A DNA stretch of 64,000 bases. Origin: Mercurialis annua (taxonomy: Eukaryota; Streptophyta; Magnoliopsida; Malpighiales; Euphorbiaceae). Under the pieces are notes generated by a model. That model saw only the letters and a list, made by a program, of their open reading frames with translations. It searched no databases and was not told the origin of the DNA. The DNA lies in NCBI RefSeq assembly GCF_937616625.2, contig NC_065570.1, positions 19,554,046 to 19,618,045 of the forward strand, read 5' to 3'. How positions within the stretch are numbered: position 1 is the stretch's first letter; each line of letters begins with the position of its first letter. Position numbers and translations under genes: made by a program. Shown here piece by piece: positions 2,308 through 62,690 of the stretch.

Positions 2308-2829
2308 TAGCTAGTTTCTTCGGATCGCATACTAGTTCTCGTATATACATTTGATGGAAACATATAATATTTAATCAAATCATCTAACATGCGATGCGTA
2401 AAACAGTATACATATCAATATAAAATGACTTTATATGTATAATACACGAAAGTAAAATGCAACTCACAGTGACCGCAATCCAATCACAAATATGGTCGAT
2501 GAAATGATATGCCCTCGCTATCCCACGTCTACTGACCTCTCTGCTCGCTGGCACGTCTGATAAATAATTAACGTTTAATGATTAGACGTTAATCTCGTAT
2601 TCCTATACGTATAATATTTTTAAGTTTTAGGGTTTAGTTTCATTTCGATGAAGTTTCAAGGAGTTTTCAGGACAATGCGCGGGTGCTGCCTGCACAGTGA
2701 CACTGTTTAGTAAAACGACAATCTCTCCCAATTGAACCGTTGGATCGAGCTGAAATTTGACAGACGCGTTCCTAAGAGGCAAATCTATAAACTGTCCGTT
2801 GGGATTTTGAATCTGCCAAGTTTAGGGTA

Positions 2830-2918
2830 GTGTGCGAACGCACACAGTGAGTGTGCGAACGCACACCCTCAAACTCAGGGAGTGTGCGAACGCACACTCA
2901 ATGTGTGCAAACGCACAC
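2830..2918. repeat. Palindrome array in LTR: four GTGTGCG-AA-CGCACAC units
   Basis: Three exact copies of GTGTGCGAACGCACAC (2830-2845, 2851-2866, 2882-2897) and one single-base variant (2903-2918). Each has 7-bp complementary arms around AA. Intervening bases differ, so the inverted repeat itself is the unit. Confidence 0.9.
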
Positions 2919-3755
2919 TCATGACAGCCCCCCGGAAAGTCGTTTTCCGGGGTTTTTCAACCATCCCGACGTGCTATACATTCAACTAAACAAAACCCGC
3001 ATCTCGGTTTTCATTAAAACGCTATAATAACTTCAAAAACGTCGAATTCAAACCAATACTCAATCCTAATACAAAACAGCCCTTTAATATCACTTTTCAA
3101 CCAAATTTCTTGAAATTTACCTTGAAACGAGGCTTAGGATCGATAAAGAATTCGATTCTGAAGAAATTGCCGCGAAAATCACTCGAATCGGACGTCGAAC
3201 GGCGAAACGGCGGCGAAACGACGGTATCGTCGATATTTTCCTCCATTTCTCTCGATCCTTCTGCTCCCTCTCTGATTCATATCTTTCTTTCTTATATCAT
3301 TTGGCTAAAGTGCCATTTTAGTCCTTGTCCTTTCTATTTTTTACCATTTATCGTTTAAACTTTTCTTTCGTAAGATTTAGTCCATAACTAAATCGATAAT
3401 CTCTTAAATTATTACTTTTACGTATTATTTATATCCGATAAATAATACGAAGCTCGATATTAATACTTTCCCGTCAAAATCTAAAATTTCCATTTTCGAT
3501 ACAAAGTGGCTAAATTACCACTTTGGTCCCTATACTTTATTTTGGACTTTTCTTGACATTTTTCCTTTTAATTCCAATTCTAATTTTAGAATTGAAATAT
3601 AACCTTCAATTTTCTCATAGTTAATTTCCCAAAACCGACCTATTTGAAACTTATTTACTTTATCTTTTTCAGAAATTCTTCTGATATCGCCAGTCTGGCG
3701 AATCAAAACTGGACACGTGGTCCAGTTAGCTAATTAAATATTTTGGGGTATTACA

Positions 3756-4119
3756 TTTATGTTATTTAAACTAGTTACTATTTTCGAACTCTTAGACCGC
3801 AGTAGAACTAGTTTATACATTACATTTGTTATTGCACTTGGGATTGTCGATTAGATCGATTATTTATTATTAGCATGTTTACACTGGATTATTTTAATAT
3901 TATAATTAAGACATGCTGTTGAGCATTTTGGATATTTAAGTTATTTATGTTAGAACTGTAATATAATTTGCTAGACTTAGGTTGGAGTCTCGGTTGCCCC
4001 CGAGCAGTTTTCCGCATGTTTAAATGTTTATTTGATTTCCGCAAGGCTTGCTACGGGTTTTGGTACGACCATACCCATACCCTAGCGCTGGCCACGATTC
4101 ATAAAATTGGATCGTGAAA
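3756..4119 (+). mobile_element. 3' remnant of plus-strand LTR (5' LTR of next element)
   Basis: The last ~364 bp of a plus-strand LTR, interrupted at 3755/3756 by the minus-strand element. It carries the lineage block GGCTTGCTACGGGTTTTGG and CCCTAGCGC and ends TCGTGAAA, where relatives read TCGTGACA, so the terminal CA has decayed. It aligns by eye with 52910-53255 (shared GACCGCAGTAG-like and CGCCCCCGAGCA-like motifs). A primer site follows three bases later. Confidence 0.8.
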
Positions 4120-4122
4120 AAG

Positions 4123-4135
4123 TTGGTATCAGAGC
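4123..4135 (+). other. Primer-binding site (initiator-Met tRNA type)
   Basis: TTGGTATCAGAGC three bases after the LTR end, on the plus strand. It marks the start of the internal region running to 8527. Confidence 0.9.
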
Positions 4136-5277
4136 TTTAGTTTCGAACTAAGGCCAAATTTTGCATGTTATGTGTTGTCGCTTATAGGCATGTTAATTTT
4201 TATTGTAGTGTCATAGGATCTACTGCGGAATTAGAATTCATGTCTTGTCTTTGAAACGTCATCTTTTGGTTTTTAAAAACTTTCTCCCTACACCGATAGG
4301 ATTGTGTCAAGTTAGTCATTTTATGTCTTGATTTGATGCTAATATTTTTGTTGTTGATGCTCTTTCACTTGGGTGATTTTTTATTTGCATTGGATTTCTC
4401 GGGAAGTCTTATATTGATAGTTTGCTTTAATTCATGCTTAGGCATGATATTGTTGTCCTTACCTTGATGATGTTGCTTTTCACTTGGTTGATATATTTTG
4501 GCTGTTATGCCCATAATGATGCTGTTGACTCTAAATTATTTGTGAGTATTTTTGACTCTATCCGTGAGCTTTGATTTCAAAAACAAAATTCATATTTTGT
4601 CAGTTTTTGACATTGGTTCGTTTTTAAATGATTTTTGAATTTTTTTTTATTATTATCACGTTTTGTGGATTACGTTGCTGACAACGTATCAGTTTTAAAT
4701 TTCTTAAGAAATTTATTTTTGGCCTGACTGGTGTTTTGACGTAAATAGTCTAATGGGTAGTCTGGACACGGCACCCTGTAATATATTTTCAGTATCTTGC
4801 CAAAAAAATAAATAAAATTCGTATATTTCAAAATTTTATATTTGATTAAGGATTGTAAAAGGTTGTTCTTTTGAAATAAAATTTCTCGAATTCTTAAAAT
4901 TTGAATGTCAGGTATAGTCTTGGTGTTTTTCAAGATAATTGTTTTGAAATAAAATTATTTCAGTAATGCGATATCGTTTTGATGATTTCACATTACTTTT
5001 GTAATTTTACCACATTTTGGTTGTCAACACTTTGGTGTTGTTGGCCTTATGCTCGTTTTGCTAGTTTTGACTAAGCTTGTGTTTTTGAAAAGGTTGTTAA
5101 AGAATAGTTGTTTTCCTCCTTGGGAGATGTTTTGATGTTGTCATTTGGGAGACGTCGAGCTTCCTATTTTTGAAAGGATTGGAAATGGTTTAAAACGCGT
5201 TTTTCCGGATTTGAAAAATGTTTTGTATACATTTTATAAATGGATATTATGGGTTTGACTTGGGTCACCCAAATTTG

Positions 5278-5314
5278 GAGTTGAGCTTGGAAGTGGTAAT
5301 CACTCGGCTAACTC
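5278..5314 (+). other. Inverted repeat in internal region
   Basis: Arms GAGTTGAGC and GCTAACTC around an inner AGTG...CACT stem containing GTAAT. Related inverted repeats occur at 54300-54336 and 61129-61165 in the other internal regions and at 52098-52132 just right of the satellite. Confidence 0.55.
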
Positions 5315-6692
5315 GATGATTTTAAATTGAGGCGTTTGGGAACAATTATATCTATGATTTTATAAAAAGAGGTTTTTCCGGAAAATAATTTTTAAAACTG
5401 TGGGACTCGACATGAACTTAAAATCTATTTTATAAATTTTAGCTTTCGAAGTGGGTTTTGATAAGTACTTTTTGACCAATATTTTTATTATTTTGGTTTA
5501 AGTTGATGTGTTCAAAATGTTATTGTATGATTTAAATTTTCATCAATTACGGGTTGTTTTGACTTATCACCATGTCGGTAGGAATTCGTTGACTATATAA
5601 GATGTTGCATGCTTAATCTTTTAGAATTATATTGATTAGCAACCCTAATGAGTAATTGTTTTACTACAAGATGTTTAAGTGCTTTTCGGATGTGTGATCA
5701 ATTCTTGGCCTATATTACTTTGTTAGTATTCTTGTCTATAGTGTTTGATTAAGTTATGTCGTATCAGTTTTAGTTCTCGTTGACCTTATTTTGTGGAGTG
5801 TCATGTGAGGATATTTCTTGCTAGTCTTTCATTAGTTTAACTTTGGCGTTGGTGTCGATGTGCGATTCGAACCTTTGTTTTGACCCTGTGATTAGTTTAG
5901 ATGTTTAAATTGGTTTTGTTGGATCGAACGTTTGGGCTCTAAAATTCGAAGTAATTAATTTTGTTATCAAGAAATTTGAGGAGTGATTCTCAAGATCTGT
6001 TTTCATATTCGAGTTCCAAATATGTCCTAGACAGAGGAAGGCGATTTGAGTAATATTACTCATCACCGGTGTAATGATTTTTCTCGTGAGTGTTTGTCTC
6101 GTGCGTGGAATTTTGAATGTTATGCCTTTCTAAGTCGGGTTCGTTTGTGATGATTTGTTGTATCGAATTTTTTAGCTGTTAGCATTCTAGAATTAGATAT
6201 GGAATCTGTGAGGTATATCAGTGTAGTAATATACTGGTGTTTTCTTTAGGTAGACCGGTGAAATACCAAAACTGATAGTGGAGCTGTGAAGTCGGTCGTG
6301 TTGTTTAATGCCTTTGGAAAATTTTCAATTCAATTTGAGGGAGAATTCGTTGTTAGGTAAATTTTAATTTCGTTGTCGATTTTGGGTTACTTCGTTAATG
6401 ACGATGCAAATTGGTGTACTAGGATAATGGAGATGGGAAAATATGTCAAGATGGGCGAGTGCAGGTCGCACAGAGTGTAATGTCTAGAAAATATTTCGAG
6501 GGAAAATTGATTTCAAAATAACTTGTTAAAGTAATTGAAATGTTTTTATCACGTAATTGTGCCCAGACATGTCATGAACATGCATTTGAGATGCCACGAA
6601 TAGGAAACTGCATTGAGCATTGAGTATGATCACTAATTAAAAGAGAAATAAATAATTGGTACATGCATTTAGAACATTCATCACGGCATTAA

Positions 6693-6757
6693 ATTATTAG
6701 GGTTGAATGCAACTCTTTGGGGATGAGAGCTGTCATCACCCTGGCGCACAATTATGT
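6693..6757 (+). other. Conserved 65-nt non-coding block in internal region
   Basis: Matches 55471-55535 at 63 of 65 positions, counted by eye, although the surrounding internal DNA is much more diverged. It contains GATGA-GAGCTG-TCATC, a small stem whose one change between copies is in the loop. A packaging, dimerisation or primer-strand role is possible but is inference. Confidence 0.65.
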
Positions 6758-8517: not shown

Positions 8518-8527
8518 TTGGGGAGAA
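8518..8527 (+). other. Polypurine tract
   Basis: TTGGGGAGAA lies directly before the LTR start TGTAATATCCC at 8528, where plus-strand DNA priming occurs in LTR elements. It identifies what follows as a 3' LTR. Confidence 0.85.
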
Positions 8528-8704
8528 TGTAATATCCCATAAAATTTTGAAATTTAAGTTGCGAGTTCTGGTGACATTTTTAGTTGTTTACGCAATTTAA
8601 ATTTGTTTTGTGATTGGATTCGAAAATGGTTTAATTTTAGTCCGGGTATCGAAAGGGGTTAATTGAAGTCCGGGTTTCGAAAATATAAAAATTTAAGTCC
8701 AGGT

Positions 8705-8871
8705 TGGGTTTCGGTTCAACCAGGAATCGGTTGAACCAGGTCTCGTTGAACCGAGGTTCAAACGAGACCCTGTCTCGGACGAGAAGTGCAGGTCTCGTTC
8801 GAGACTTGCGTTTTAAAGCAGGTCTCGTTCGAGACCTGTTCAATTTCAGCAGGTCTCGTTCGAGACCTGCT
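8705..8871. repeat. Palindrome array in LTR: GGTCTCG-TT-CGAGACC units
   Basis: Four or five degenerate to perfect units. The best is 8848-8871, with 11-bp arms AGCAGGTCTCG and CGAGACCTGCT around TT. A related unit GGTTCAACC...GGTTGAACC starts the array. The bases differ from the arrays in other LTRs but the design is the same. Confidence 0.8.
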
Positions 8872-8924
8872 ATCGACAAGGTGAGGGGAAAGTTTTACCC
8901 CCTGATTTCTCGCTATCCTTTCGG

Positions 8925-8932
8925 TATTTAAA
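8925..8932 (+). promoter_or_regulatory. Candidate LTR TATA box
   Basis: TATTTAAA in the first 400 bp of the LTR, followed by an A/C-rich leader. It is a plausible RNA polymerase II start region. TATAAAAA near 8682 is an alternative. Confidence 0.4.
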
Positions 8933-9136
8933 CTCGTTTTCTAAACCTAAATTCTTCACCACACATCATATAAACCCTAGCCGCTTTCCTTATTCAATTT
9001 TGCTGAAAACTCTTCTCCTAATCATCAATCAAAATCGGGTGTTCATCGGTAAGCTTTTTAACTTATATTTCAGTTTGGTTAAAAATTGACCTCTCCGTAT
9101 TTTGATCTGTACGTAATAATTTCAGATCCAAATTCA

Positions 9137-14801: not shown

Positions 14802-15706
14802 TGTAATATCCCGTAAAATTAAAGGATTAAATTATTCCACGTAAGGAATAATTTATAGGACTGGGAGAACGTAAATTAAATTTAAGGATAAATTTAATTT
14901 ATAGTATCTCCAGAAATATTAAATAGTTATAGAAGTTAAAATATAAAATTTGGATAATTATATTTTAACTAACGGGAATTAAGAAATGCTTATAAATTAA
15001 AATAGGATAATTTATAAGTCCCGTGTGAATATTGTTGGAGTCAATATTCACGAAATATTTTTAGAAAGTTACCCTTAAAATTTTATAAAATTTGGAGATT
15101 GAAATTTTATTAAGTGGGTCTAATTTAGCCCTAATAAATCTTTAATGATTTATTAAAGATAAAATATAAGTCCCGTGAGAATAAAAATTACGTTTTTATT
15201 CTAATTACGAATTATGGGATTCGTGATTAAAATTTCATAAAATTTGGAGTTCATTGTCCGTTTTAGTTACGGACGAGTATTTAAGAATTTGGGTTAAAGT
15301 AACGCGTGAATACTTAAGGACTAGTTTGGAATTTAACCAAACTATATCATGAAACAATTAAGATGAATTGTTTCATTTGAAACAGAAAACCAAAACAATA
15401 GATTTTGGAGTTCAGAGAACGGCGATTGCGACGGTAGGTTCGACGATTTCGATCCGATTTCTCGTTTCTAACTCAAATTTATTCGGTAATCTATTATTAA
15501 TCAAAGTTATAACCGTTATTTTGAATTTGGATATATAGAAAATGGATTATATTCGAATATATAACGGTTACCGTATCGAATCGAACGTATACGTAATGAT
15601 TTTACGTTCCGATAGCGGAAATGGATGAATTGGTGTTTGTATATGCGTTTTGGATCGAAAAATGGGTGTAGCTCGACCGAAATTGGCCCGGGAACGGAGT
15701 TCCAGC

Positions 15707-15896
15707 AGCTGTGCGTAAAGCACAGCCGCTGTGCATCACACAGTGCATGTGCGGACGCACAGCCTAGGCTGTGCGCACGCATAGCCCGACTGTGCGAGCG
15801 CACAGTCTCTTTGAGACTGTGCGACCGCACAGTCACCTCTGCGGACGCACAGGGACACTGTGCGGGCGCACAGTGTCCTGTGCGGGCGCACAGGGC
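15707..15896. repeat. Palindrome array in solo LTR: CTGTGCG-NN-CGCACAG units
   Basis: About eight units. The clearest are 15788-15807 (arms GACTGTGCG/CGCACAGTC, centre AG), 15815-15834 (centre AC) and 15853-15878 (12-bp arms GGACACTGTGCG/CGCACAGTGTCC, centre GG). Local GC content is far above the AT-rich LTR. CACGTCGGG and GACGTGC motifs lie just downstream. Confidence 0.9.
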
Positions 15897-16407
15897 CTCT
15901 CGCCAGTGCGCGTTTCCGACGTGCTTTCGCACGTCGGGTTTCGAACCGACGAGTTTTGAACAATTTTGAACGGTACGGTCAATAAGGACTAAAAAGAACT
16001 TGGACGTTTAAAGAAGTTCGATTAATTAAAACTTAGAGACGTTTTAATTAGATTCTCTATTAATCAAAGTGATTAATAGTTAGAGGACTATGAGTTGAGA
16101 TTAAGAATGAGTATAGACTAGATATGTTATATATCTAGTAATGTCAATATAGTTTATTCTTTAGAGTTAGAAATCATATTTCAATTTTGTTTAACAATTG
16201 TTTTCTAACTAGATCCGACGAGCAAGCAAGCTACCGGACCCGGAGAGTAGAGGGTGATCGAGAACTGTTTTGTGGATAACGGTTTTGTGAGTTCGCATAT
16301 TTACTTTTGAATATTGATGCCAAAACATTTATAACTAAAAACGTGTTTGAAATTGCATTGCATAGAGTCGATTTAAAACCAATATATAGATCCACTGGAA
16401 CGTGCTA

Positions 16408-16426
16408 TCTATTGGGCAACAATAGA
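16408..16426 (+). other. 19-nt LTR hairpin (TCTATTG stem)
   Basis: TCTATTG-GGCAA-CAATAGA, followed by TGTGTGATCACC. Relative to the CCTATTG/CAATAGG form, the outer C-G pair is T-A here, so pairing is kept by a double change. Confidence 0.8.
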
Positions 16427-16805
16427 ACTGTGTGATCACCGGTATTAATAAATCATTGCATTGCATACTAGTTGGGTTCTTTGGCCAGATGCTTGCAAAG
16501 AGGCCTAAACCTAACAGGTTATCCTGGGAGCCAGTAATTCAGTTTACGGCCCATCAAACCTTACACAGAGATAAGATGAATGTGATAACATGAGTTCACA
16601 TTTCATCCTGTTTTAAACGAGAGAGCATGTACTGTGGTATTAAACACAGTTAACCAAATGGGGTTTCTCCTAGGGTTTCATTTGGATCGGTTATTTGGCT
16701 GCACAAAGTGTGTTTACATGCGATTTCTGCTTTTATTAAGATGCTTGAGTAACTATGTGAATTCACTCATATTTGACCCCCGTTGATTTCCCTTTTCACA
16801 GGTAA

Positions 16806-16875
16806 ATGATATTTTGATGTGACAAAACTTCCAATTCTTTATGATATTTTGATGTGACAAAACTTCCAATTCTTT
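16806..16875 (+). repeat. Perfect 35-bp tandem duplication
   Basis: Two head-to-tail copies of a 35-bp unit beginning ATGATATTTTGATGTGAC (16806-16840 and 16841-16875). Identity suggests a recent slippage or repair event. Confidence 0.9.
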
Positions 16876-17396
16876 CTCCGAAAGTTGAAACTAAATAAAG
16901 GTCACTCTAGAGCTGCAGAGTATTTCTAGCTCCGAACAGTAGTTCAATTGTAAATGCTTAAACTCTGATATGAAACTACTGTCAGTATCATTTTGGGACA
17001 AAAGCATGTTTCATACAAAAGGGCTTTTGCCAGTTGTTTATATGAAACCTGGTTTTGATAAAAGCTTTGTGATTAATTATTTGGCATGCTTAAACCGGTT
17101 ATCTAATGTGATATCTGGTTTGCACCGCTGGCATTGTTTTCGGACAGGGTTGTGTCAAGATGTGTGCAGTGTACACGTATTACCCTGAGTCCAGAAATGC
17201 AATTGCATGGTTTTGATTACACATTTATCTGAAGGTTTTCAAATACTTGCGAAAAAAGATTGAGACCTTTTATGTTTTCAAAACGCGAAAAGTTTTTACT
17301 GTTTTTCCTAGGCTTGCAACGGGTTTCGGAACAACCATTCCCATTCCCTAGCGCCAGTCTCGGCACGAGTTTCTAGGTGGAAATCGGGTCATGACA

Positions 17397-23939: not shown

Positions 23940-24731
23940 TGTCACGGCCCAAATTATTGAGCCGAGACCGGCACTAGGGAACGGGAGTGATAGCTCCAGA
24001 ACCCGTAGCAAGCCTAAAACCACTATGAATTTTTCGCGAATTTAATATATTGTTCTATATAAAACGTTTTCAGAAAATCCTTTTAAACATTATCATTATA
24101 CGTATCAAAATATTTGAATTACTTTTCAAAAACCATCGCGAATCGTTATTATAGACTAGGGTCTTACCGAGCGACACCTTAGTCCAGCCCTGCCCTGTCT
24201 CTATTCATATTCTAGACCAATTCCACTCATGGCAATTGGTTAAGGAAATCAAACGGTTAAAATATGATCTTCATAAACAAATAATATATATATATACTTT
24301 TATATCAAATCAGAGTTGCCCATTTAAATATACCGTTTGAATTTAAATCTTACATCACATACATACATCTACCGACTACTGCAGCTCTACGAAGAAAACG
24401 TTCTTTGACATAGTCTTTCACTATTGTAGACTTCCGAAACAAGGAAAGGAAGTCCGTCCTTCAAAACGCTTTGACTTGAAAGAAGGACTGTGAGGGTAAG
24501 TATATGGGAATATACTGAGTGAGTTCATACGTTTACTAATAAGTATTCATATAAAACATAAAACAATGCAATAACGTTCAAACCTCGTGCAACCAAGTAC
24601 AAGATCCGATTGAAACCCTAATCCTCGAATATGCTAAATGTATGTACTCAGAGGAAAACTTATCCAATAGTCCGACCCGGGAGTATTCACACTCAACCAC
24701 GTCAGTCGCGACAAATCTCTTAATTCCAATG

Positions 24732-24810
24732 GTGGGTCCAACCCACTGGTAGGTCCGACCTACTAGATACGGAGCTCAGGTTACACTGTAACCGAGTTCA
24801 CTCTCGTATC
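24732..24810 (-). other. Hairpin cluster in LTR copy 1
   Basis: GTGGGT-CCA-ACCCAC (24732-24746), GTAGGT-CCG-ACCTAC (24749-24763), then an outer stem GATAC/GTATC (24766-24810) with inner stem GGTTAC/GTAACC. Relative to 2099-2178 the stems change in complementary pairs (GGCTAC/GTAGCC there, GGTTAC/GTAACC here). Confidence 0.75.
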
Positions 24811-24891
24811 GCATTCGTATATTCAACTTCGAAATTCGTGTTCTTAATCGTATTCACAGCTGTATCAAATCAAAATTGGTGATCACACAGT

Positions 24892-24910
24892 CCTATTGCC
24901 GCTCAATAGG
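24892..24910 (-). other. 19-nt LTR hairpin, copy 1
   Basis: CCTATTG-CCGCT-CAATAGG, preceded by TGATCACACAG; the same stem as 2289-2307 but a different loop. Confidence 0.8.
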
Positions 24911-25452
24911 TAGCACGTTCCATCAGATCAATACTGGTTTCAAATCAAGCGTATATGCAATTCATATAAAGATTTCGCACTATAAACATGCAAATCAAAC
25001 ATAAAGCAATATAAAATAATTGCGTGCGTAAATACTTTAAAAGTAAACTTGTAAAAACTCACAGTGACCGCTTATCCAAAAATACTCTGGTGCTCAGAAA
25101 CGCCTAGCTTCCCGAGCTCCTGGTCCAGCGGCTCCTTGCCTCGCCGGATCTAAAACTATTTTAAAATAATTGACTCACGTCAGAATCCTATTCTAAGATT
25201 GACTCTAGACTCGGGACACGACATGCTAAATTCATTAACCGTCGTGCTTTTCATGTATATCCCGATAAACGGTTTTTAACTCATTTACGAGTCGAATATC
25301 ATTTCTAAATCCATTCTCGTTTAACCTCGTTAGGTTAAATAATTATAACGATAATTAGTCGATAAACTAATCAGTTGCAATAATTTTACGCGAAAACGGG
25401 TCCAAACTCAAAAATAAAACGATCGGGCGAAACACTTTGCGGGTGCATGTTT

Positions 25453-25472
25453 GACTATGCGCTCGCACAGTC
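25453..25472. repeat. Degenerate palindrome array in LTR copy 1
   Basis: GACTATGCG-CT-CGCACAGTC has one arm mismatch; half-units follow (GACTGTGCG at about 25479, CGACGCACAGCC at about 25508). A duplicate lies at 30511-30530. Confidence 0.7.
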
Positions 25473-25886
25473 TCTTCAGACTGTGCGTTTGACAGTGGAG
25501 CTTTTCGACGCACAGCCACGGGCTCGCGCCCCGAGGCCCAATCCGACGTGCTTCCGATATAATTTCACATTTTCGACATCCAAACAACGCACAAACACGT
25601 CAAAATCACTAAATCCTAATTCAAAACGCTATAAATCAATCCTAATATCGTTAAAACGATAAAATCGTTTCGTGGCCTAAAACTTTAACTCGATATATCG
25701 AGAAATTCATCCATCCAAACGATAAAACGTCAAGCTTACCATGATTCGCCGTCGAAATACGATCAATTCGAGCTATGAAACGTCGGAAACGGACGAGAAA
25801 ACGAAGATCGAGAGACGGGACGTAATCCTTCGTTAAAGGAAATGAAAATGGATTCTCTGGATCCTTCATTCCTTCATCTGAAGGGT

Positions 25887-25914
25887 TATATATATATATA
25901 TATATATATATATA
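25887..25914 (-). promoter_or_regulatory. (TA)14 run, probable LTR TATA region, copy 1
   Basis: A dinucleotide run at the place where the LTR at 61311-63388 has a shorter TA run (63036-63048). Copy 2 has 13 TA units (30957-30982), consistent with slippage after duplication. Confidence 0.5.
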
Positions 25915-26448
25915 ATGGTCAATATACTCTTTTAATCCTTCATCTCTTTAACTTAAACCAATTCTCTATTAAACTTTCTATTTTAACTTAACGATTATTT
26001 ATTTACCTTAACTGAATTACGTACGTATCATTTATATCCAAATAAATAAGACAACTCCAAAATTATTATTTTCCATCGATAATCTTTTAATCGCTATTCT
26101 CGGGCTTAACTGGCTAATTTACGTTTTGGTCCTTGAACTTTTCAAAAGTTGCAATTTAGTCCAAAACGTATCTGCGTCCAAATTTTAAAAGGTCTCCAAT
26201 CGACTCACAACTTTTTCCATAAATATTATAAAATGTTTCGCGGACCTTGGCGAAATAATTATTATCTCGGAATTTATAATTTATTTTATATTAATTTCCT
26301 AAGTTATTTCATTAATTCCCGCTAATCCGCTCAATATCTATTATTCTATATTTCCAATATAATTAAATTAAATCCTTTTTAATTTAATTTATCGGAATTC
26401 ACAACACATGGCACGACTTAATTATTCTAAAACATTTGGGGTATTACA

Positions 26449-46500: not shown

Positions 46501-46530
46501 TAACGTTTAAAAACATTTGGCTTAAATTGC

Positions 46531-49456: not shown

Positions 49457-52400
49457 TTGTTTCGTAACGTTTGTAAACGTTTGGCTTCAATCGCTAAAAA
49501 GGGGAAACGTTTAGATTTGTTTCGTAACGTTTGTTAACGTTTGGCATAAATCGCTAAAAAGGTGAAATGTTTGTATTAGTTTCGTAACGTTTTAAACGTT
49601 TGGCTTAAATCGCTAAAAAGGTGAAATGTTTGGTTTTGTTTCGTAACGTTTGTAAACGTTCGGCTTAAATCGCTAAAAAGGTGAAACGTTTGGATTTGTT
49701 TCGTACCGTTTGTAAACGTTTGGGTTAAATTCCTAAAAAGGTGAAACACTTGGATTTGTTTCGTAACGTTTGTAAACGTTTGGCTTAAATTGCTAAAAAG
49801 GTGAAACACTTAAATTTGTTTCGGAACGTTTGTAAACGTTTGGCTTAAATTCCTTAAAATGTGAAACGCTTGGATTTGTTTCAAAACGTTTGTTAACATT
49901 TTGCTTAATTTGCTAAAAAGGTGAAACGCTTGGATTTGTTTTGTAACGTTTGTAAATGTTTGGCTTAAATTGCTAAAAAGGTGAAACGCTAGGTTTTTTT
50001 TCGTAACATTTGTAAAGGTTTGGCTTAAATCACTAAAATTTTTAAAGGTTTGGATTTGTTTCGAAACGTTTTAAACGTTTGGTTTTGTTTCGTAACGTTT
50101 GTAAACGTTTGGCTTAAAATACTAAAAATGTGAAACGTTTGGATATGCTCCGTAACGTTTGTAAATGTTTGGCTTAAATTGCTAAAAAGGAAAAACGTTT
50201 GGATTTGTTTCGTAATGTTTATAAACGTTTGGCTTAAATCGCTAAAAAGGTGAAACATTTGGATTTGTTTCGTAACCTTTGTAAACGTTTGGCCTAAATT
50301 CCTAAAAAGGTGAAACATTTGGATTTGTTTCGTAACCTTTGTAAACGTTTGGCATAAATTCCTAAAACGGTGAAACATTTGGATTTTTTTCGTAACCTTT
50401 GTAAACGTTTGGCTTAAATCGCTAAAAAGGGGAAACATTTAGATTTTTTTCGTAATGTTTGTAAACGTTTGCCTTAAGTTGCTAAAAAGGTCAAACGCTT
50501 GGATTTGTTTCGTTACGTTTGTAATTGTTTGGCTTAAATTACTAAAAAGGTGAAACGCTTGGATTTGTTTCGTTACGTTTGTAAACATTTGGCTTGAATT
50601 GCGAAAAAGGTAAAACGCTTGGTTTTTGTTTCGTAACGTTTGTAAACGTTTGGCTTAAATTTCTAAAAATGTGAAACGTTTGGATTTGTTTCGTAACATT
50701 TGTAAACGTTTGGCTTCAATCTCTAAAAAGGTAAAACATTTAATTTGTTTCGTAACTTTTGTAAACGTTTGGCATAAATCGCTAAAAAGGTGAAACGTTG
50801 GGATTAGTTTCGTAACGTTTTAAACGTTTGGCTTAAATCACTAAAAAGGAGAAACGTTTGGATTTGTTCTGTAACGTTTGTAAATATTTGGCTTAAATCG
50901 CTAATAAGGTGGAACTTTTGGATTTGTTTCATAACGTTTGTAAACATTTGGCTTAAATCGCTAAAAAGGTGAAACATTTGAATTTGTTTTGTAATGTTTG
51001 CAAACGTTTGGCTTAAATCGCTAAAAGGGTGAAATGTTTGGATTTGTTTCGTAATGTTTGTAAACGTTTGGCTTAAATCGCTAAAAAGGTGAAACATTTG
51101 GATTTGTTTCGTAGCGTTTGTAAACGTTTAGCTTAAATCGCTAAAAAGGTGAAACGTTTGTATTTGTTTCGTACCGTTTGTAAACGTTTGGCTTAAATTG
51201 CTAAAAAGGGGAAACGTTTGGATCGGTTTCCTTATGTTTGTAAACGTTTGGCTTAAATTGCTAAAAAGGTGAAACACTTGGATTCGTTTTGTAACGTTTG
51301 TAAACGTTTGGCTTAAATTCCTAAAAATATGAAACGCTTGGATTTGTTTCAAAACGTTTGTAAACGTTTGGCTTAAATTGCTAAAAAGGTGAAACGCTTG
51401 GATTTGTTTTGTAACTTTTGTAAACGTTTGGCTTATATTGCTAAAAAGGTAAAACGCTTGGTTTGGCTTAAATAGTTAAAAATGTGAAACGTTTGGATTT
51501 GTTTCGTAACTTTTAAGCGTTTGGTTTTGTTTCGTAACGTTTGAAATGATTGGCTTAAATTGCAAAATGGTGAAACATTTGGATTTGTTTCGTAACTTTT
51601 GTAAACGTTTGGCTTAAATTGCTAAAAATGCAAAACGTTTGGATTTTTTTCGTAATGTTTGTAAACATTTGGCTTAAATCGATAAAAAAGTGAAACGTTT
51701 GGATTTGTTTTGTAACGTTTGTAAACGTTTGGCTTCAATCGCTAAAAAGGTGAAACATTTATATTTGTTTCGTAACGTTTGTTAACGTTTAGCATAACTA
51801 GCCAAAAAGGTAAAACGTTTGGATTTGTTTCGTAGCTGTTTTCAACGTTTGGCTTAAATCGCTAAAAAGGTGAAACTCTTGGATTTGTTCCAAAACGCTT
51901 GTAAACGTTTCTAAACTTTTATAAGATTTATTTAATTAAGTTTTTGGGTTGTAACTTGGGTTACTTGAAATTGAAGTTATTGAGTTCCGCTTTTAAAATG
52001 GTTTATTATTTTATGGATTTATTTTATAAATATAAACTCGGGTTTATATTTGATAAACGTTTTCAGTCGGGTTAGACTTGGGTCACCCGACAAGTGAGGT
52101 TAGCTTGGTAGTTAATGATAACTCGGCTAACCTACTATTTGGAAATTAATTATTATTTAAAGATTATTAAATAATATTTATAAATTGGATTTTAAAGCGA
52201 GAACTCAATAGACTTATATTAATTGGGCTTTATTACCTAATGGGTATTTTTGTGTGTTCTGGCTTGTGTTATTCCGACGTGTTATTTGTGCTAGTCCTAT
52301 GTCGTGTCTAGTACTCTCTAGAGTTAGGGTCTGTTTTTATAATTATTTTATTTGTCTAGACCCGTCTATTGTTCGTGCTCTAGAGGCGAACCAGGATTAG

Positions 52401-52554
52401 TTGCTTGCCGGTATTCACGTGGATTAGCAAGCAGTGAGTTTGTACTTACTATTTACCGCTTTATTAAGTAAATTGTTATTTTAATATTAAATATATATAC
52501 TGTACGTATATTTCGAATTGTTTTTATATTATGGCTCTTAGTTGGAACATGCTA

Positions 52555-52573
52555 CCTAATGGGCATCATTAGG
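52555..52573 (+). other. 19-nt LTR hairpin (CCTAATG stem)
   Basis: CCTAATG-GGCAT-CATTAGG. Relative to CCTATTG/CAATAGG the fifth pair is flipped from T-A to A-T, a compensatory double change. Confidence 0.8.
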
Positions 52574-52620
52574 ACTGCGTGCGCACCGGTAATGATCTGG
52601 GAAAGGTAAATATGGAAATG

Positions 52621-52748
52621 TGGTAACTCGGTGTGAGCATAGCTCTCGGCACCAAATAGAGTAACTCGGTGTAGCACAGCTCTCGGGACTCTGGATATGG
52701 TATAAGTGTGGTCAGTGGTAACTCGGTGTAGCTCAGCTCTCGGGACCA
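52621..52748 (+). repeat. Three tandem TAACTCGG hairpins
   Basis: Units at 52621-52654, 52658-52692 and 52716-52748 share TAACTCGGTGT and AGCTCTCGG. Outer arms differ but pair: TGGT/ACCA, AGAGT/ACTCT, TGGT/ACCA. Confidence 0.75.
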
Positions 52749-53258
52749 TACCTATTGGATTATGTTTATATTTAGAATTGTAGATTAGGGTTCCAACTAT
52801 TATTCGTAATATCGTTATTAAATGTTTTCCCAATTTTCCTAGGGTTATGATCTGAGAGAGTCTGGTGATCTCCACATTTACTTTTCCTCGGAGGTTCCAT
52901 TTATTTTGATAAATTGTAAACTGTTTTATTCTTAGGCCGCAGTAGTAACTAGACGTCTTTATTATTTTTATATATTTTGTCGGATTGGTTCGACTGGTTT
53001 TATTGCTTTGGCATGTTATATTATTTACATTGGTTTATGATAAATCTATTTTAGACTCGGAATTGGATAAGCATGTTATATTAACTGTTGAATATTATAA
53101 CTGCTAGATTTAGGCTGAAGTCTCGAACGCCCCCGAGCATTGGTTTTCTGCAGGTTTATGTGTTTATGTATTAAATGAAAGGCTAGCTACGGGTTTTGGT
53201 ACTACATTAGCCATACCCTAGCGCCGGTTGCGATTCATGAAAATGGGTCGTGACAAAC

Positions 53259-53271
53259 TTGGTATCAGAGC
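53259..53271 (+). other. Primer-binding site (initiator-Met tRNA type)
   Basis: TTGGTATCAGAGC three bases after the LTR end at 53255. It starts the second internal region. Confidence 0.9.
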
Positions 53272-55470: not shown

Positions 55471-55535
55471 ATTATTAGGGTTGGATGCAACTCTTTGGGG
55501 ATGAGAGATGTCATCACCCTGGCGCACAATTATGT
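55471..55535 (+). other. Conserved 65-nt non-coding block, second copy
   Basis: Differs from 6693-6757 at two positions (GGTTGGATG for GGTTGAATG; GAGATG for GAGCTG). A second shared stretch lies about 120-145 bp upstream (55328-55363, matching 6554-6589). Confidence 0.65.
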
Positions 55536-57386
55536 GAAATAGATTTTATCGATAAAATGGTTTGAAAAAGATGTTTTGAAACAAACTCGCGAGTTCCTTT
55601 GGGGTAAATGTATTTATAAAGTTGTGGAATTTCAAATGATTTTGAAACTGTTACCGAAAGGTAGCTAGACAAATACTCTGTGATGATGGTGATGGTTATT
55701 GGACGTTTATGTTGTGAGATATTGGTCTGTAGAATTAGAATCTCGTGGTTATGAGGAAAAATGATTTTGAGGTTGCGCTCGAGACATAGTTGTGCTAAGT
55801 GCGGTATAGTGTATTTTAGAATAGAAAGCTTCATGATAATTAAGGATTTATGGATTAAGAATGTTGGTTATGCTCAACGTGTGCATATATACTATATGTT
55901 TGTTTAAAACGAAACTTTACCTTTCCAGATTTGAAATTGTCCAAAGAATTTTGGTATATTGATATAAGGAATGTTTATAAACAAGAAATTTACATTGTTG
56001 ATTTTATCTTTCTGAGGAAAGGGAGAATTTTTGTCAAAATTGATTTAAAAGGGATAATAAATTTTTCGCTTGAGCGATTTCTTCAATTTTGTTTTGTTTG
56101 AGAAAATTTAGAAGCGACTTAAAATTTTGGGATGCTTGAAACATCAATGTGTATTTTGAGTACGGAAAATTCTGCCACAGTTGACTTTTAAGTATAAATT
56201 ATTTAAAAAGTTTTTAGCAAGTTTGAATTAAAAAGAACATAAATTTTTGTCAATTGAACTGTTTAATAGATTTGCAAATGTATTGGAAAGTAAGAGGAAA
56301 TTTCGGATTTAAATGTGGAGTTCTTGAAATTTTTCAAGGGTTTGCGAAACCGACTGTTTTTCAACAGTAAAGGTATTTCGATTTCGAATGAAAAGGAGGT
56401 GTAAGACGTAGAGCCTTTTAAACAAAGTGGAAATTTTTTTTCTGTATATAAAATATTTAATATTAAAAGATTTTATACCCACAGGAGTTGGTTTTGAGTA
56501 TAACTAACTATCCGGTCGTAGTAAACTGGCCGTTTTGATCTCTCGTTGTATACGAGGCTGTAGTCAATTGATTGAATAATTTCGAGGATTTGAGTTCGAT
56601 TTGGTTATATGAGGTAGTTGATTTAAAAATCGAAATCGCGTTTAATAGGTTTCGATAACCATGATTGGTTGATCGATTTTGTTATAGAAGGTATTATCGT
56701 AATGATGGATATCGTTGGGTCAATTGTTGAACCCTTGGTAAGGGCGACAAAATTTTATGTTGTCAGATGCAGACAATGTTCAGAGTAGTCGTGGCGTTAT
56801 GTTTCTGAGTGATTAGAAGAATCATTATGATGGATATTGTTTATCATTGATATAGAAATTTATTTTGTTATCATGAGAGAAGTTCGCTTTTCTCTGAATT
56901 GCGATATGAGTTTTTGTGTTGTTGATTCACAAGTTAATAGTATTATCGAGCTGGTACTAATCGTTAGGATTAGATGATTATTATAATGTTTGTTTTGGAA
57001 CCGAAATATTATGTGAATTTTTTTAGTTTGTTGCCGGTCATTTTGATGTAGAGATGCTATAAGCGGAAGTAAGTAAGTGTTTTAGAACGATAGATTTTAT
57101 TAGTTATGTTTGTAGTGTTATTGTTTTGCCTGAGGATTTTGGAATTGTAGAATTATAGTTGAGCTTAGCGCTTAATCTTGTATTTGACATTGAGGATTTT
57201 ATAATAGATGAGTTTCGAGCTGGTTCTGGAAGCCATTTCGGTATAGAGAGATTGTGACTCCCAGTTGTAAAATTGTTGATTATTCACATTGTGTTGATCG
57301 AGTGATTGTTGGAGCACCGAGTTGATAGAATCAAAATTTTACGCTTATGTGTGTTGTAATCGTTATATTGCAAATAAGTTTCAGAT

Positions 57387-57743
57387 TTGAGATTCGAGGT
57401 TCGTTTTGGTGTCAAGGGAAAGTTGGCACCGAGGTATATTGGTCCTTATGAGATTTCAGAGAGGATTGGAGCTGTGGCTTATCGTCTGGTTCTGCCGCCA
57501 GACATGTCGTTAGTACATCCTGTGTTTCATGTTTCTATGTTGAGAAAGTGCATTTCTGATCCTTCGCACGTGATTGTGCCTCAGAGTGTTGAGATTGACC
57601 AAGAGCTGTCCTATGAGGAACAGCCAGTTGAGATTGTTGATACGCAAGTGCGTAAATTGCGGAACAAGGAAATTCCGATGGTCAAAGTTCTCTGGCGCAA
57701 TCATCTCGTATTTGGATATCGAGATAAGCATGTCGGGATTTAA
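57387..57743 (+). pseudogene. Integrase C-terminus / chromodomain-like fragment of Ty3/gypsy polyprotein
   Basis: An open stretch of about 118 codons with clear similarity to the end of plant Ty3/gypsy pol. A GKLAPRYIGPYEI segment (about residues 11-23) is typical of the integrase C-terminal domain. VHPVFHVSMLRK (about residues 42-53) is the conserved stretch before the tail, and VKVLWRNHLV (about residues 99-108) is the start of a chromodomain-like region. The next expected residues (a Glu/Thr/Trp-rich turn) are missing: the frame slips after LV, and W/DIE-like codons continue in another frame until an LTR interrupts at about 57731. There is no ATG at the left edge; it is a fragment of a longer polyprotein. 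It is the only clear pol remnant in the window and supports a chromovirus-type Ty3/gypsy origin. Confidence 0.8.
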
Positions 57744-58620
57744 TGGGAAAATTGGAGGAAATTTCCATTAAATAAAATAAATGATTTTAAAATGGATATT
57801 TAAATAATATCCGTAAATGTTATTATTTGGATTATTTTAAGAGAATCCATAAACATTTGGAATATTATTTTTAGATACGGATTTAAGCGCGATAAATAAA
57901 TTATACGGCTAAATAATAAATTTAAGGAAAAAGGCGATAATTAATATTTTGAATTAAGAAAAGTAGTCCGTATAATTTATAATCGAACAAAGTTTGGAAT
58001 TAGCCCGAGAAATTTAGCGACGTGCTTAATTAATAAAAGAATGATTAAATAGAAGGAATTTTTAGAATTGGGTTAAGAAAAGGATTACATTAAAACTAGC
58101 CCATTTGAATTAAAAGCCCAAGTCATCCTTTTTGTCTAGATACAAAAACATTCCAGAGGATTCTAGTTTCACCATCTTCATCATTCTCTATTCTAAGGGC
58201 ATGGCTAAGGAAGAAAAAAATGAGTAAAGTTTTGATTACAAGTTTCAGCAACTAATTCTAGCAAAGGATAAAACTCATCATCTAATATCAATTTGGAGTT
58301 GAGACAAGAGGTAATTACTCAAACTAAGGTTGATTTCAATTGATTTATTGTGATAGGATATTTTTATAAATTCTGAAAATTTATGCAATCAAAAGCTTAT
58401 CTTCAATCTCTAAGAGTTGTGTAGAGTTTAGATTAATTTATTTTGGGTAATTGCTTGGTAAAAAGATAGAAAAATTAAAAGTTGATTTAAGGGTTTAAAC
58501 AATAAATGTTAGAGAAAAACATTGAGAACTAAAGCTGAAATTTCTTAAGGTTTTGATTAAGCAATTAGAGGTGAATAGAGGTCGGGTTTGGCGGAAGTGA
58601 ACGGTGGCCGGCGAGAGACC

Positions 58621-58816
58621 GGTCAGGCCGTGGTGGCCTGACCCGTCTGCTCTGTTGAGCAGACCCAAGTCTGCTCAACAAGAGCAGACGTGGTCTGCTC
58701 TATAAGAGCAGACCTGTGTCTGCTCTAAAAGAGCAGACCTGGTCTGCTCAAAAGAGCAGACCGGCTGCTCTTAGGGAGCAGACCAGCTGGTCTGCTCAAT
58801 GGGCAGACCAGCCGGT
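58621..58816. repeat. Palindrome array in LTR: GTCTGCTC...GAGCAGAC units
   Basis: Opens with GGTCAGGCC-GTGGT-GGCCTGACC (58621-58643), then about six or seven units with arms GTCTGCTC/GAGCAGAC and 2-6-nt centres (TGTT, AACA, TATA, AAAA, AA). It occupies the place of the TGTGCG arrays in other LTRs with unrelated bases. Confidence 0.88.
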
Positions 58817-59975
58817 CGCTCCGGATCCGCGTGCCACCGAAATTGTTTTTTTTAGGGTGTTTTTATAAATTAAACCAATCAATTTAGTGTGAAATTAAAA
58901 GCTGAAAATGGATTTAGAAAGTTTAATAAATGAGTTTTGAAATAGAAGTAAAATTGAATTATGGCATAGATTAAATTGAAGTTTAAATACTTGAATATAA
59001 AGTTTAAGCCGGGTTTAAGTGGATTTAAATGGCTAAAAGCTGATAAAAGGAGGCCGATGCGTTATTAGACGTTGGAGAGTTGATAAAATAGTAGTAGTTA
59101 GCTAAAATAATGGGTTAGAAGTTAAACTTAGCTACTAATTTGATTGAGGGATTTGTTAAATGGTAAGTCAAATCGGTTAAACAAGTCGTTAAGAAGGCGA
59201 GAGTAAAAGAAATGGACTTAGAACTAATTCAAGCTTAAACGCTTGAATATAAACGCGAAGTTTTAAAAATAAAGTAGTTTACGAATTAAGACGTTAATTT
59301 AGTATTTATTTGTATTATAGATCGTACGGGTATTTGGATTGGAGAAATAGAGAATTTGGAGGGTTAAATAACGGGCTATTTTATTGTGCTTTATGAAATT
59401 TGGATTAAGCGATCGAGGTGAGTTCGCGATTTACTTTCGAGTATTATTATTTTTATTTATAAATAGATACATGTATTTGATTGAATGTTTTAGTTTAAAC
59501 TTATATATTTGTTTATAGAACTCATATTGATATTAATAGAGTTTTATTAAAATATTTTAAATAATAAGTTTATGACTTTTATTAATAGTTTATTTTATGC
59601 TATAAACGAATAAAATATATTACACTTTATTAAAGGTCGCATAAATTGAGTTTGAAATATATTGAAAAATGTTTGATACTAGACTTTGATTTTTATAATG
59701 GATAATACGATTTATAGTTGATGATGGCTAGATCGTGAGATCGCCTTTGAAATAGCATCGTTTATTTGAAAAGAGCATATATTATTTAGTTAACGCTCTT
59801 TATTCTTTTAAGACCTTTAAGCATGTATATTAGTATAGAGAATTTGAGAATTTTATTATAGTACTTGTTATTTTAATAGCTTCGCTATATGTATGTTTAT
59901 TATACGAGCTTATACATTGTTTGTCTTGTGGAATTATTATTTAAACCCAATAAGTGATCCGTGGGAAACGAGCTA

Positions 59976-59994
59976 CCTATTGGGCGTCAATAGG
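59976..59994 (+). other. 19-nt LTR hairpin (CCTATTG stem)
   Basis: CCTATTG-GGCGT-CAATAGG, followed by CTGTGTGATCACC. Confidence 0.8.
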
Positions 59995-60113
59995 CTGTGT
60001 GATCACCAGTACTGATACGAGTCGAGTCTAGGCGTCTATGGTCAATGATTTGAAATGATAAATTATGATTATCGATCGATTAATGGAATAAGGAGGATAA
60101 AAAGAAATGTGAT

Positions 60114-60295
60114 AGACACAAGGTAACTCGGTCGAACTATCTCGGGACCTGTGTCTAGTGGGTAACTCGGTCGAACTATCTCGGGACCCACAACTTGGGA
60201 TTAAGTAGTGGCATGATGTAACTCGGTTGAACTATCTCGGGACTATGCCACGTGGTAGCGGGTAACTCGGTCGAATTATCTCGGGACCCGGCCAC
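60114..60295 (+). repeat. Four tandem hairpins with constant core and covarying outer arms
   Basis: Each unit holds GTAACTCGGTCGAACTATC (variants TTGAACT, CGAATTATC), then TCGGGAC. Outer arms differ and pair: AGACACA/TGTGTCT (60114-60156), GTGGGT/ACCCAC (60158-60191), GTGGCAT/ATGCCAC (60208-60251), GTGG..GGGT/ACCC..CCAC (60252-60295). Confidence 0.82.
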
Positions 60296-61883
60296 TCGGA
60301 CGATATGATTCGAAAAACAATTATCGTTGATTATGTTCTATAGGTTCATAGCATTTGGGTTTAGGGTTTCAAACGGATCCGATATTGGAAACCATTACAT
60401 TATATTTTATGTTTATTTATGTTTAATTAATCGTTTATTATCGAAGTATGGTTAAATACAAATTTATTGTTGAAATATTTAGAAAAGTATGTTTTATCGT
60501 TAATGCGACCTTGTTTGAATTATAATACCGTTAGTAAATTGTGAACTCACTCAGCGTTGTCTGACCCCCCAACAGTGTTTTCTTTCAGGATTAATATACG
60601 ATGATGTGGTCGAGCTTCCATTCGTTGTTTCGGAAGTCTCAGTCATGGGAGGTCTTATTCTTCTTAGAGCTGCAGTAGTCATGATAGTAGACCTAGCTAG
60701 TAGCAGACGATTTATATTTATATTATGACTTGCTAAAATGATGTATTTTGGAAAAATGAATTATCCAGGGATTTAATATATGGTTAATTGGTATTTTATA
60801 CAGAGTGGTTTGTGTATTTTCACAGGTGTGGTTATTTAAGTTTACAGGCGTTATATTGCCGATTTTTTCGAAAATGGTTTTATTAAGTATTATAACGATT
60901 TTGGAAAAGTGAAAAATTTTTAGGTAAATTTAGGCTTGCTACGGGTTTCGGAACCAAAATTCCCATTCCCTAGCGCCGGTCGCGGCCCTCGATTTTGGGT
61001 CGTGACAGTCGGGCTTCTTATTTTAAAAATATTGAGATTTATTTTTGAAATACGTTTTCCGGATTTAAAAATGTGTTGTATATGTTTTATAAATGGTTAT
61101 TGCGAGTTGACTTGGGTCACCTAAATTAGAGTTGAGTTTGGAAGTTGTAATTATTCGGCTAACTCGTTGATTTTAAATTGAGGCGCTTTGAAAATTGTAA
61201 TTATTGTTTTATAAAAGAGGCTTTCCGGAAAATGAATTTTTAAAACAGTGGGGCTCGACATGAACTTGAAATCTATTTTTGTAATTTTTTTTTTTTGAGA
61301 ATTTGGTCTTTGTCACGACCCAATCTCAAGGCCGAGACCGGCGCTAGGGAATGGGAGTGGTTGCTCCGAAACCCGTAGCAAGCCTAAAAATGTAAAATAA
61401 TTTTTCGCGAATATAAATGTCATGCATGACATACATACACACGTGTCATGCTAAACACACATGACATGCATTCATATCCTCTGCAGTCTCAATTATCAAA
61501 ACGCAGCTAGCATAAAACTTTATTAACTTTAAAACAATAAAGTTATATTTACAGAAAACTATATAATACAAGCTGATTTACAAAACACTTATCTACTGCA
61601 GCTCTAAGAGTAAAGTATTGTTTCTTTACATACTCAAAAATACACACTTCTGGAAGTAGGATAGAAGTCCGTTGCTTCAAAGCGTCTTTATCCTGAAAGG
61701 AAAGTCTGTGAGGGGTCAGTATATTGGGATATACTGAGTGAGTTCATACATTTACTAATAAGTATACAAATAAAACATAAAACGATATTCAATCGTATGC
61801 AGCCAAGTACGAGATCCGACTGAAACCTTAATCCTCAAACATACTAAATATCAATCAAGCAACCCAATCGTTAATGTCAAATT

Positions 61884-61915
61884 GTGAGTCCAACTCACTG
61901 GTGGGTCCAACCCAC
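61884..61915 (-). other. Twin YCC-loop hairpins in solo LTR
   Basis: Two adjacent 15-nt hairpins with 6-bp arms and CCA loops. The first stem is GTGAGT/ACTCAC where other LTRs have GCGAGT/ACTCGC or GTGGGT/ACCCAC. Confidence 0.75.
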
Positions 61916-62600
61916 TAAATACGGGGACTCCAGGCTACACCGTAGCCGAGTGCTCACTCGTATCGAACTATACCTCAAATCTCAAATTTCATAATCATAA
62001 TCAGCTCACAGCTGTATCAAATCAAAACTGGTGATCACACAGTCCTATTGCCGCTCAATAGGTAGCTCGTTCCATCAGATCAATACTGGTTTCAAATCAA
62101 GCGTATGCGTAATTCATATAAAAATTTCGCATATAAAACATGCAATTCAAACATAAAGCAATATAAAATAATTGCTTAAATAAATACTTTAAAAGCAAAT
62201 CGTATAAACTCTTAGAAAACGCTTATCCAAAAAAAATACGTCGGGGCTTTAGAACGTCAAGCTTCCCGAACTACTGGTCCAGCTGCTTCTTGCCTCGCCG
62301 GATCTAAAACAAATTTTAAAACATTTGACTTGTATCAGAATCCTATTCTAAGATTGACTCTAAACTCGAGACTCGACACACTGAACTTTTATTAACCGTC
62401 GTGCTTCTCACGTGATTATCCCGATAAACGGTATCAAACCCGTTTATGGATAAAATATCACTTCTAAATCAATTCTCGTTTAACCTCGTTAGGTTAATGT
62501 CTCAAACTATTCGATAATTAATCGAGTATTAATTAATCTCAAGTCTCGATATGCGTGTACACGAATTTTTCGAAATTAAGTCGACCGGTAAAAATTATTG

Positions 62601-62690
62601 TGCGGACGACGGACGCACGCCCCGAGGAGCGGGCTATGGACGCACGCCCCGCGTATGCGGGCGTGCCGCACACTCCGTCCCGAAAATAAA
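62601..62690. repeat. GC-rich array in solo LTR (GGACGCACGCCCCG units)
   Basis: Direct and inverted GC-rich units: GGACGCACGCCCCG twice (about 62610 and 62638), then GCGGGCGTGCCGCAC in the opposite sense. It sits where the palindrome arrays lie in sister LTRs, but with direct repeats more prominent. Confidence 0.7.

Follow-up and report, generated by a model that had tools for sequence, protein, structure and literature searches.

Hypervariable palindrome arrays inside the long terminal repeats of chromovirus-type retrotransposons in Mercurialis annua

Palindrome arrays in the long terminal repeats of the window

We analysed 64,000 nt of plant DNA from Mercurialis annua (contig NC_065570.1; this whole stretch is hereafter the window), in which the long terminal repeats (LTRs) of retrotransposons carry arrays of short palindromes. 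A preliminary description of this DNA had claimed that each LTR holds such an array at an equivalent place, constant in design and replaced wholesale in arm sequence, and had proposed either that a stem is under selection or that such units are made by a copying mechanism. Elements were mapped by LTR termini, primer-binding sites, LTR blast and splice-site scoring. The LTRs are of the TGT...ACA type, with 5′ TGTAATA and 3′ GTGACA ends (exception LTR7, 5′ TGTCGGG), and the primer site TGGTATCAGAG adjoins three of the elements. A pol piece (57378–57740) encodes an integrase C-terminus of the Tf2-1 SH3 type (PF24626, E 4.2e-23) whose best relatives are Mercurialis annua proteins (77% identity); the fragment ends at the chromodomain position, and PF00385 is present in several of these relatives. 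The window LTRs belong to Ty3/gypsy chromoviruses, of a clade that we take to be Tekay-like.

Perfect inverted repeats (arm at least 7, loop at most 5, GC content at least 0.5) were scanned against 300 dinucleotide shuffles per LTR. The arrays of LTR1, LTR2, LTR3 and LTR7, previously placed at 2830–2918, 8705–8871, 15707–15896 and 58621–58816, contained 4, 2, 10 and 12 such repeats, versus a maximum of 1–2 among the 300 whole-LTR shuffles of each; across six LTRs, shuffled whole LTRs and shuffled arrays alike gave at most 3. The window arrays are genuine and greatly exceed chance expectation. Two others from the preliminary description were borne out in part: near 25453, in LTR4, one perfect hairpin remained and the other units had decayed, and at 62601–62690, in LTR8, the scan found no perfect GC-rich unit, the array showing a modest fold excess and its two words TGTGCG and CGCACA occurring together in 13 of 20,000 mononucleotide shuffles. 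The copy in LTR5 had been overlooked; since LTR5 is a 98.7% identical duplicate of LTR4, the independent LTRs with arrays number six.

TGTGCG and CGCACA are common to LTR1, LTR3, LTR4 and LTR8, and the arms of LTR3 and LTR4 are the same; the idea that arm sequences in the window are wholly unrelated was rejected on this ground. Predicted folds of array RNA reached z values of −9.9 to −15.4 (LTR1, 2, 3 and 7, and the array of genome locus L092), versus −3.1 for LTR4 and −2.6 for LTR8. In the former, the predicted best fold consists mostly of rods in which units pair to one another, and a main fold in which every palindrome forms its own hairpin was rejected. A search of the window against Rfam at gathering thresholds gave no match.

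Array position, a putative leader intron and unit design

In the window LTRs, TATA candidates were chosen by eye, and splice sites were scored with approximate frequencies and a home-made acceptor score (Table 1). In five of the six independent LTRs (LTR1, 3, 4/5, 7 and 8) the array starts 350–482 bp downstream of the TATA candidate and 188–309 bp downstream of a putative splice donor, as an equivalent place would have it; LTR2 departs from this, in that its TATA candidate follows the 3′ end of the array by ~100 bp, which places the array in the unique 3′ region (U3). The best donor fell 80–178 nt after the TATA candidate in all six window LTRs (rank 1–2 among 42–105 GTs), and the top acceptor-like AG lay within one conserved block (ACTCACTCA...TGACCCC...TTTCAG) in five of five LTRs, that of LTR4 being 13 nt upstream, still within the block. 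On these approximate frequencies and this home-made score, conserved donor, branch/pyrimidine tract and acceptor signals of an LTR leader intron were found. Because such signals surround the array, we read it as intronic in the LTR1/3/4/7/8 class, where a leader intron wholly inside the LTR is plausible.

A conserved 19-nt hairpin of the window LTRs, whose pattern has at least 985 + 1015 matches in the genome (reversed control, 0), defined a genome sample of 30 loci, selected by exact hairpin match and lying in the initial 9.6 Mb of contig C1; LTR pairs were inferred by spacing, strand and near-identity, which reduced the 30 loci to 19 inferred insertions. Arrays (at least two inverted repeats) were present in 25 of the 30 loci, contrary to the possibility, raised in the preliminary description, that most copies lack them. 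Nearly all GC-rich inverted repeats (256 of 258) lay in the interval from −1000 to −500 relative to the hairpin; the mean over 1200 shuffles was 0.10 per locus (maximum 2). A TATA motif occurred 138–170 nt upstream of the donor in 18 of 18 sampled LTRs having ATCACG/GTAAGC. Twenty further LTR2-type loci were picked for containing GGTCTCGTTCGAGACC, so that this unit is present there by construction; their arrays lay near the LTR start, with a donor motif in 15 and, in eight, a recognisable TATTTAAA-like site downstream of the array, ~75 bp after the last core. As mapped in these copies, the array place was shown to be fixed in one LTR class, 500–1000 bp before the hairpin, and to lie near the LTR start in another; positional homology holds within the first class and does not extend to the second. 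Among the sampled copies of these LTRs, arrays are frequent; they are also hypervariable and modular.

The hairpin itself, with its CCTATTG motif, shows two compensated pairs in six sequences; the best fold of the LTR7 context does not form it, and we therefore make no structural claim for it. It is followed by CTGTGTGATCACC or a variant (59976–60012 and six other window places), the palindrome after it in LTR6 being GTGCGCAC in place of GTGATCAC.

Among 401 inverted repeats (50 genome loci plus six window LTRs, overlapping ones included), 238 had the 2-nt centre that had been called usual. The core CGAACG recurred in 8 of 30 distinct 16-mers with such a centre, flanked each time by another outer arm (GTGCA, CTGTG, GTACA, ATTCC, GGTCT, GTTCT, ATTCT and GTGTG); wholesale replacement accordingly describes the outer arms of the genome sample, where many units keep the core, and overstates the case for the window, where four LTRs keep TGTGCG/CGCACA. 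Cores (CGAACG/CGTTCG) had paired arms in 100 of 105 cases in the intron-array zone and in 62 of 77 in the U3-array zone, versus none of three in the 1.05 kb downstream. The commonest array unit is a CGAACG core between complementary arms, and variants exist. On the sense strand, core centres were AA 97 and TT 3 in intron arrays, and AA 25 and TT 37 in U3 arrays; an RNA-level role and one-directional amplification would each fit the AA bias of the former.

Table 1. LTRs, palindrome arrays, candidate signals and conserved hairpins of the window.
Feature	Position	Strand	Description
LTR1	1395–3755	−	5′ LTR, primer site directly left; from termini, primer-binding site, LTR blast and splice-site scoring
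LTR1 array	2830–2920	−	GTGTGCGTTCGCACAC as unit, read in LTR sense; within the putative leader intron; fold z −10.9
LTR1 candidate signals	TATA 3298; donor 3120; acceptor 1880	−	
LTR2 start	8528–9120	+	3′ LTR, preceded by purine tract; broken by 60-bp satellite
LTR2 array	8705–8871	+	GGTCTCGTTCGAGACC type; in U3, upstream of TATA candidate; fold z −10.2
LTR2 candidate signals	TATA 8969; donor 9049	+	
LTR3	14802–17396	+	Solo LTR, target-site duplication GTTTG
LTR3 array	15707–15897	+	CTGTGCG-NN-CGCACAG; fold z −9.9
LTR3 candidate signals	donor 15434; acceptor 16801	+	
LTR4	23940–26448	−	Within satellite; flanks AAAGG/AACGG
LTR4 array	25447–25524	−	Partly decayed; one perfect 10-bp hairpin 25464–25487; fold z −3.1
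LTR4 candidate signals	donor 25739; acceptor block near 24475	−	
LTR5	28998–31516	−	Duplicate of LTR4, 98.7% identity
LTR5 array	hairpin 30522–30545	−	Same array as LTR4
LTR6 end	51910–53255	+	Then primer site at 53259
LTR7	57731–61007	+	LTR
LTR7 array	58620–58817	+	GTCTGCTC...GAGCAGAC; without CGAACG core; fold z −15.4
LTR7 candidate signals	TATA 58138; donor 58311; acceptor 60588	+	
LTR8	61311–63388	−	Solo LTR, target-site duplication GTCTT
LTR8 array	62599–62691	−	Imperfect; TGTGCG and CGCACA kept; fold z −2.6
LTR8 candidate signals	donor 62879; acceptor 61693	−	
Conserved hairpin	59976–59994	+	CCTATTGGGCGTCAATAGG; LTR7
Conserved hairpin, with variants	2289–2307, 16408–16426, 24892–24910, 29950–29968, 52555–52573, 62044–62062		Other window LTRs

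The LTR6 end is probably the continuation of LTR2 past the satellite. Between the two (9120–51909) lie 35.2 kb of 60-bp satellite, nested LTRs deducted, apparently inside the putative leader intron of a single LTR; AAACGTTT has 560 copies in this satellite versus 4 in the rest of the window. LTR4 and LTR5 (23940–31516) are 98.7% identical and both embedded in the satellite, which suggests that satellite plus nested LTR were duplicated together. Elsewhere in the genome (G000 contig C1:25633955–25671460), GGTCTCGTTCGAGACC is repeated 20 times with a spacing of ~1.97 kb, which points to a long-period satellite with this palindrome inside it.

Three GTDB contigs (L014, L015 and L016), from assemblies of Streptomyces clavifer, Geminicoccus harenae and Solirubrobacter sp., encode plant-like chromovirus relatives. 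L015 and L016 are 99% identical over 5.8 kb, and their plant-like DNA is therefore probably shared contamination. In this distant plant relative a donor lies 160 nt past the TATA box (L015), and the top acceptor falls in the matching block (L016); L014 contains too little LTR for this comparison. Right before the TATA box of L015 (5818–6055) stands a ~51-bp tandem repeat, another promoter-proximal repeat. Protein searches of viral contigs found no relative, and none of 13 exact 15-mer matches had LTR similarity at E 0.01.

Turnover, probable exchange and compensated change of the arrays

Both LTRs of one insertion derive from one complementary DNA, so that array differences between them would date from the final steps of DNA copying or from the time since insertion. 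Eleven LTR comparisons showed 0–0.36% substitutions outside the array window. All six counted indels (10, 26, 69, 21, 39 and 20 bp; gaps at the left alignment edge are left out of the count) began inside the array window, and none in the 18,274 outside columns. Array length differed in five of nine array-bearing LTR pairs; L092 and L093, identical over 1679 outside columns, differed by 69 bp in the array. Substitutions too were denser in the array window (10/2449 versus 19/14916 outside), counted without two comparisons within the triple L081–L083, whose 'array window' holds no array.

Identity in 100-column windows was then used to scan for exchange. L092 and L090 were 0.92–1.00 identical across the array (−971 to −522, with one window of too few columns) and 0.53–0.90 from −472 on, whereas L092 and L086 were 0.36–0.51 identical in the array (−884 to −572) and 0.79–1.00 from −431 on; downstream of the array, L092 was closer to L086 and L069 than to L090. 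L066 and L088 shared 0.93–0.94 just left of the array and 0.84–0.99 to its right, versus 0.44–0.58 within it (−1011 to −663). L066 and L075 showed the reverse, with 0.92–0.93 in the array core (windows −880 and −832) and 0.32–0.79 elsewhere. In these alignments, LTR lineages that have diverged elsewhere were shown to have arrays of a single arm type in common, the LTRs appearing as mosaics, and in such comparisons block exchange accounts for the 'wholesale' arm replacement better than point mutation. The copying mechanism of the preliminary description gains support, because the indels in near-identical pairs are confined to arrays and arrays seemingly moved as blocks between LTR lineages.

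The arms also change in step. GGT(G)CACG..CGTG(C)ACC was found in 23 units and GGT(A)CACG..CGTG(T)ACC in 20, versus two mixed units; the GGTGCACG and GGTACACG arms were matched in 43 of 45 units, in LTRs whose identity downstream of the array reached 0.92. These counts showed a compensated change, from a G-C to an A-T base pair, separating two arm types (GGTGCACGAACGTGCACC being the G-C form and GGTACACGAACGTGCACC the A·C form). Within LTR3, two pairs outside the core matched in 11 of 14 cells, which was equalled by 9 of 5000 permutations. Constant structure with turnover of sequence is seen, then, in the arms and within LTR3, but many units keep a fixed core.

Candidate explanations and known systems

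The account that we favour, and hold to be reasonably probable as a whole, treats each array as a palindromic minisatellite of high variability, which the LTR of a chromovirus-type retrotransposon carries as a cassette. Units would be gained and lost by slippage at hairpins, in plus-strand DNA copying or in later host replication; exchange of cassettes would come about through template switches among co-packaged RNAs or through gene conversion; and arm complementarity would be upheld by hairpin-templated correction of one arm from the other, by a useful folded form, or by both. An array in the leader intron would be removed from spliced messenger RNA (mRNA) and retained in the unspliced RNA that serves as replication template. 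The turnover part of this mechanism is well supported at the level of sequence.

Several observations weigh against this account. The acceptor score was devised after the conserved block was already known, the window TATA candidates were picked by eye, and TATA, transcript start, intron and the borders of U3, the repeat region (R) and the unique 5′ region (U5) are predictions. Between acceptor and LTR end 10–14 ATGs remain, so that splicing alone would leave the leader uncleared. Gene conversion between chromosomal copies could be an alternative source of the mosaics. As for compensation, genome totals were 1078 for the A-T form and 129 for the G·U form (reversed controls, 0); pairs outside the core in LTR1 showed no covariation (3 of 8 cells, permutation mean 3.3), and covariation faded over offsets 8–11 (207/5000 permutations for LTR3, 710/5000 for all units). 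The exact CGAACG core is absent in LTR3, LTR7 and L088, and the L073 array also differs. Five of the 30 loci (3 of the 19 inferred insertions) are array-free, namely the triple L081–L083, L068 and L070, and GC-rich inverted repeats of the scanned kind are absent from the LTR pieces of L014, L015 and L016; the array is therefore dispensable in some lineages.

A purely mutational origin is quite possible, if not the account we would back: hairpin slippage, template-switch correction and recombination would make and spread arrays that are tolerated in intron and U3 and have no function. The restriction of indels to the array in young LTR pairs and the mosaic exchange speak for it, together with the decayed arrays of LTR4 and LTR8 and the array-free LTRs. 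Arm mismatches in the 30 loci lack a clear G·U bias (29 G·U versus 24 A·C, a comparison blurred by post-insertion changes), and the preservation of structure through arm change fits template-directed correction as well as selection. Slippage alone, however, leaves both the narrow array position and the one CGAACG core with eight outer arms unexplained.

Selection on RNA structure, close to the selection on a stem once proposed, seems to us a more doubtful alternative. The array would fold into a long rod with regular internal loops and mark unspliced RNA for dimerization, packaging, export or splicing control, in agreement with the low fold z values and predicted unit-joining rods, the compensated arms and the excess of AA centres in intron arrays. 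Yet direct-repeat amplification would also yield all-AA centres, single-stranded DNA is predicted to fold likewise (L092), the LTR4 and LTR8 arrays fold modestly and LTR2-type arrays are located in U3. Structure is kept despite arm change, but the fixed CGAACG core and the absence of a clear excess of G·U over A·C argue against pure selection on the stem.

We consider it unlikely that the arrays act in DNA as rows of dimer-binding sites, in which CGAACG and symmetric arms would provide an enhancer from U3 or from a first intron. One core does serve both array positions, with paired arms around it in both zones, and U3 arrays combine mixed core orientation with the TATTTAAA-like site in some loci; arms that vary completely would nevertheless be unusual for a single binding site, LTR7, LTR3 and L088 have no AA/TT centre, and we know of no factor matching the CGAACG core. 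If the arrays are used, a folded rod in unspliced RNA is slightly more likely than a DNA-binding array. A broader proposal, which strikes us as improbable, is an exchangeable functional module with a constant CGAACG core and self-complementary arms free to vary, whose change small-RNA silencing perhaps drives; it would be traded as a cassette between retrotransposon lineages and put a rod-shaped mark on unspliced RNA, and mRNA would lose it through splicing of an intron internal to the LTR. Chance or simple low-complexity sequence has practically no probability left: the arrays are GC-richer than the remaining LTR, but base composition as their source was rejected by the shuffles, including those of the arrays themselves, and by reversed control patterns, which gave no genome match.

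These LTRs offer a natural experiment: a structure persists while its letters change, one genome supplies many copies, and some LTR pairs are similar enough for changes to be followed singly. Two questions thereby become testable, namely whether recombination among retroelements passes regulatory modules from lineage to lineage, and whether selection preserves short palindromes in LTRs or copying produces them.

Literature searched by title and start of abstract contained no palindrome arrays in plant LTRs and no chromovirus LTR intron; subscription papers were outside its scope, and this is no proof of absence. The arrays are a variant of element-borne tandem repeats for which we found no prior description. 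Related processes are known from other systems. In quasipalindrome correction, described in bacterial mutation studies, template switching copies one arm from the other and so turns imperfect palindromes into perfect ones; the same perfecting would apply here, but in a plant retroelement and as read from sequence alone. Retroviral dimerization initiation hairpins are likewise self-complementary RNA in the unspliced leader, but they are single hairpins with palindromic loops, whereas the arrays are rows of whole palindromes. Tnt1-type elements carry short, partly palindromic, subfamily-specific activator repeats in U3 near the promoter. U3 variability is mentioned elsewhere (PMC10794571). The repeated motifs near the promoter that differ by subfamily resemble ours; Tnt1-type elements are, however, of a different superfamily, and the majority of our arrays follow the TATA candidate and fall within a putative intron.

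BARE has distinct RNA pools and an intron in gag, and Ogre, as cited in the same paper, an intron between open reading frames (PMC3735527). Splicing there separates transcript classes with different roles, as we propose here, but in gag or between reading frames, whereas our predicted intron lies wholly within the LTR leader; if confirmed, such an intron would alter the view of how mRNA and replication RNA are separated in these elements. Also related are the tandem repeats of Ogre/Retand-type elements, which are described or cited as hypervariable, element-borne, located between pol and the 3′ LTR, and seeding satellites (PMC11963269, PMC12477314, PMC6317226). Like these 3′ untranslated region repeats, the window arrays are hypervariable, tandem and element-borne; unlike them, they do not lie between pol and the 3′ LTR but inside the LTRs, have a palindromic unit and form a block common to LTR lineages.

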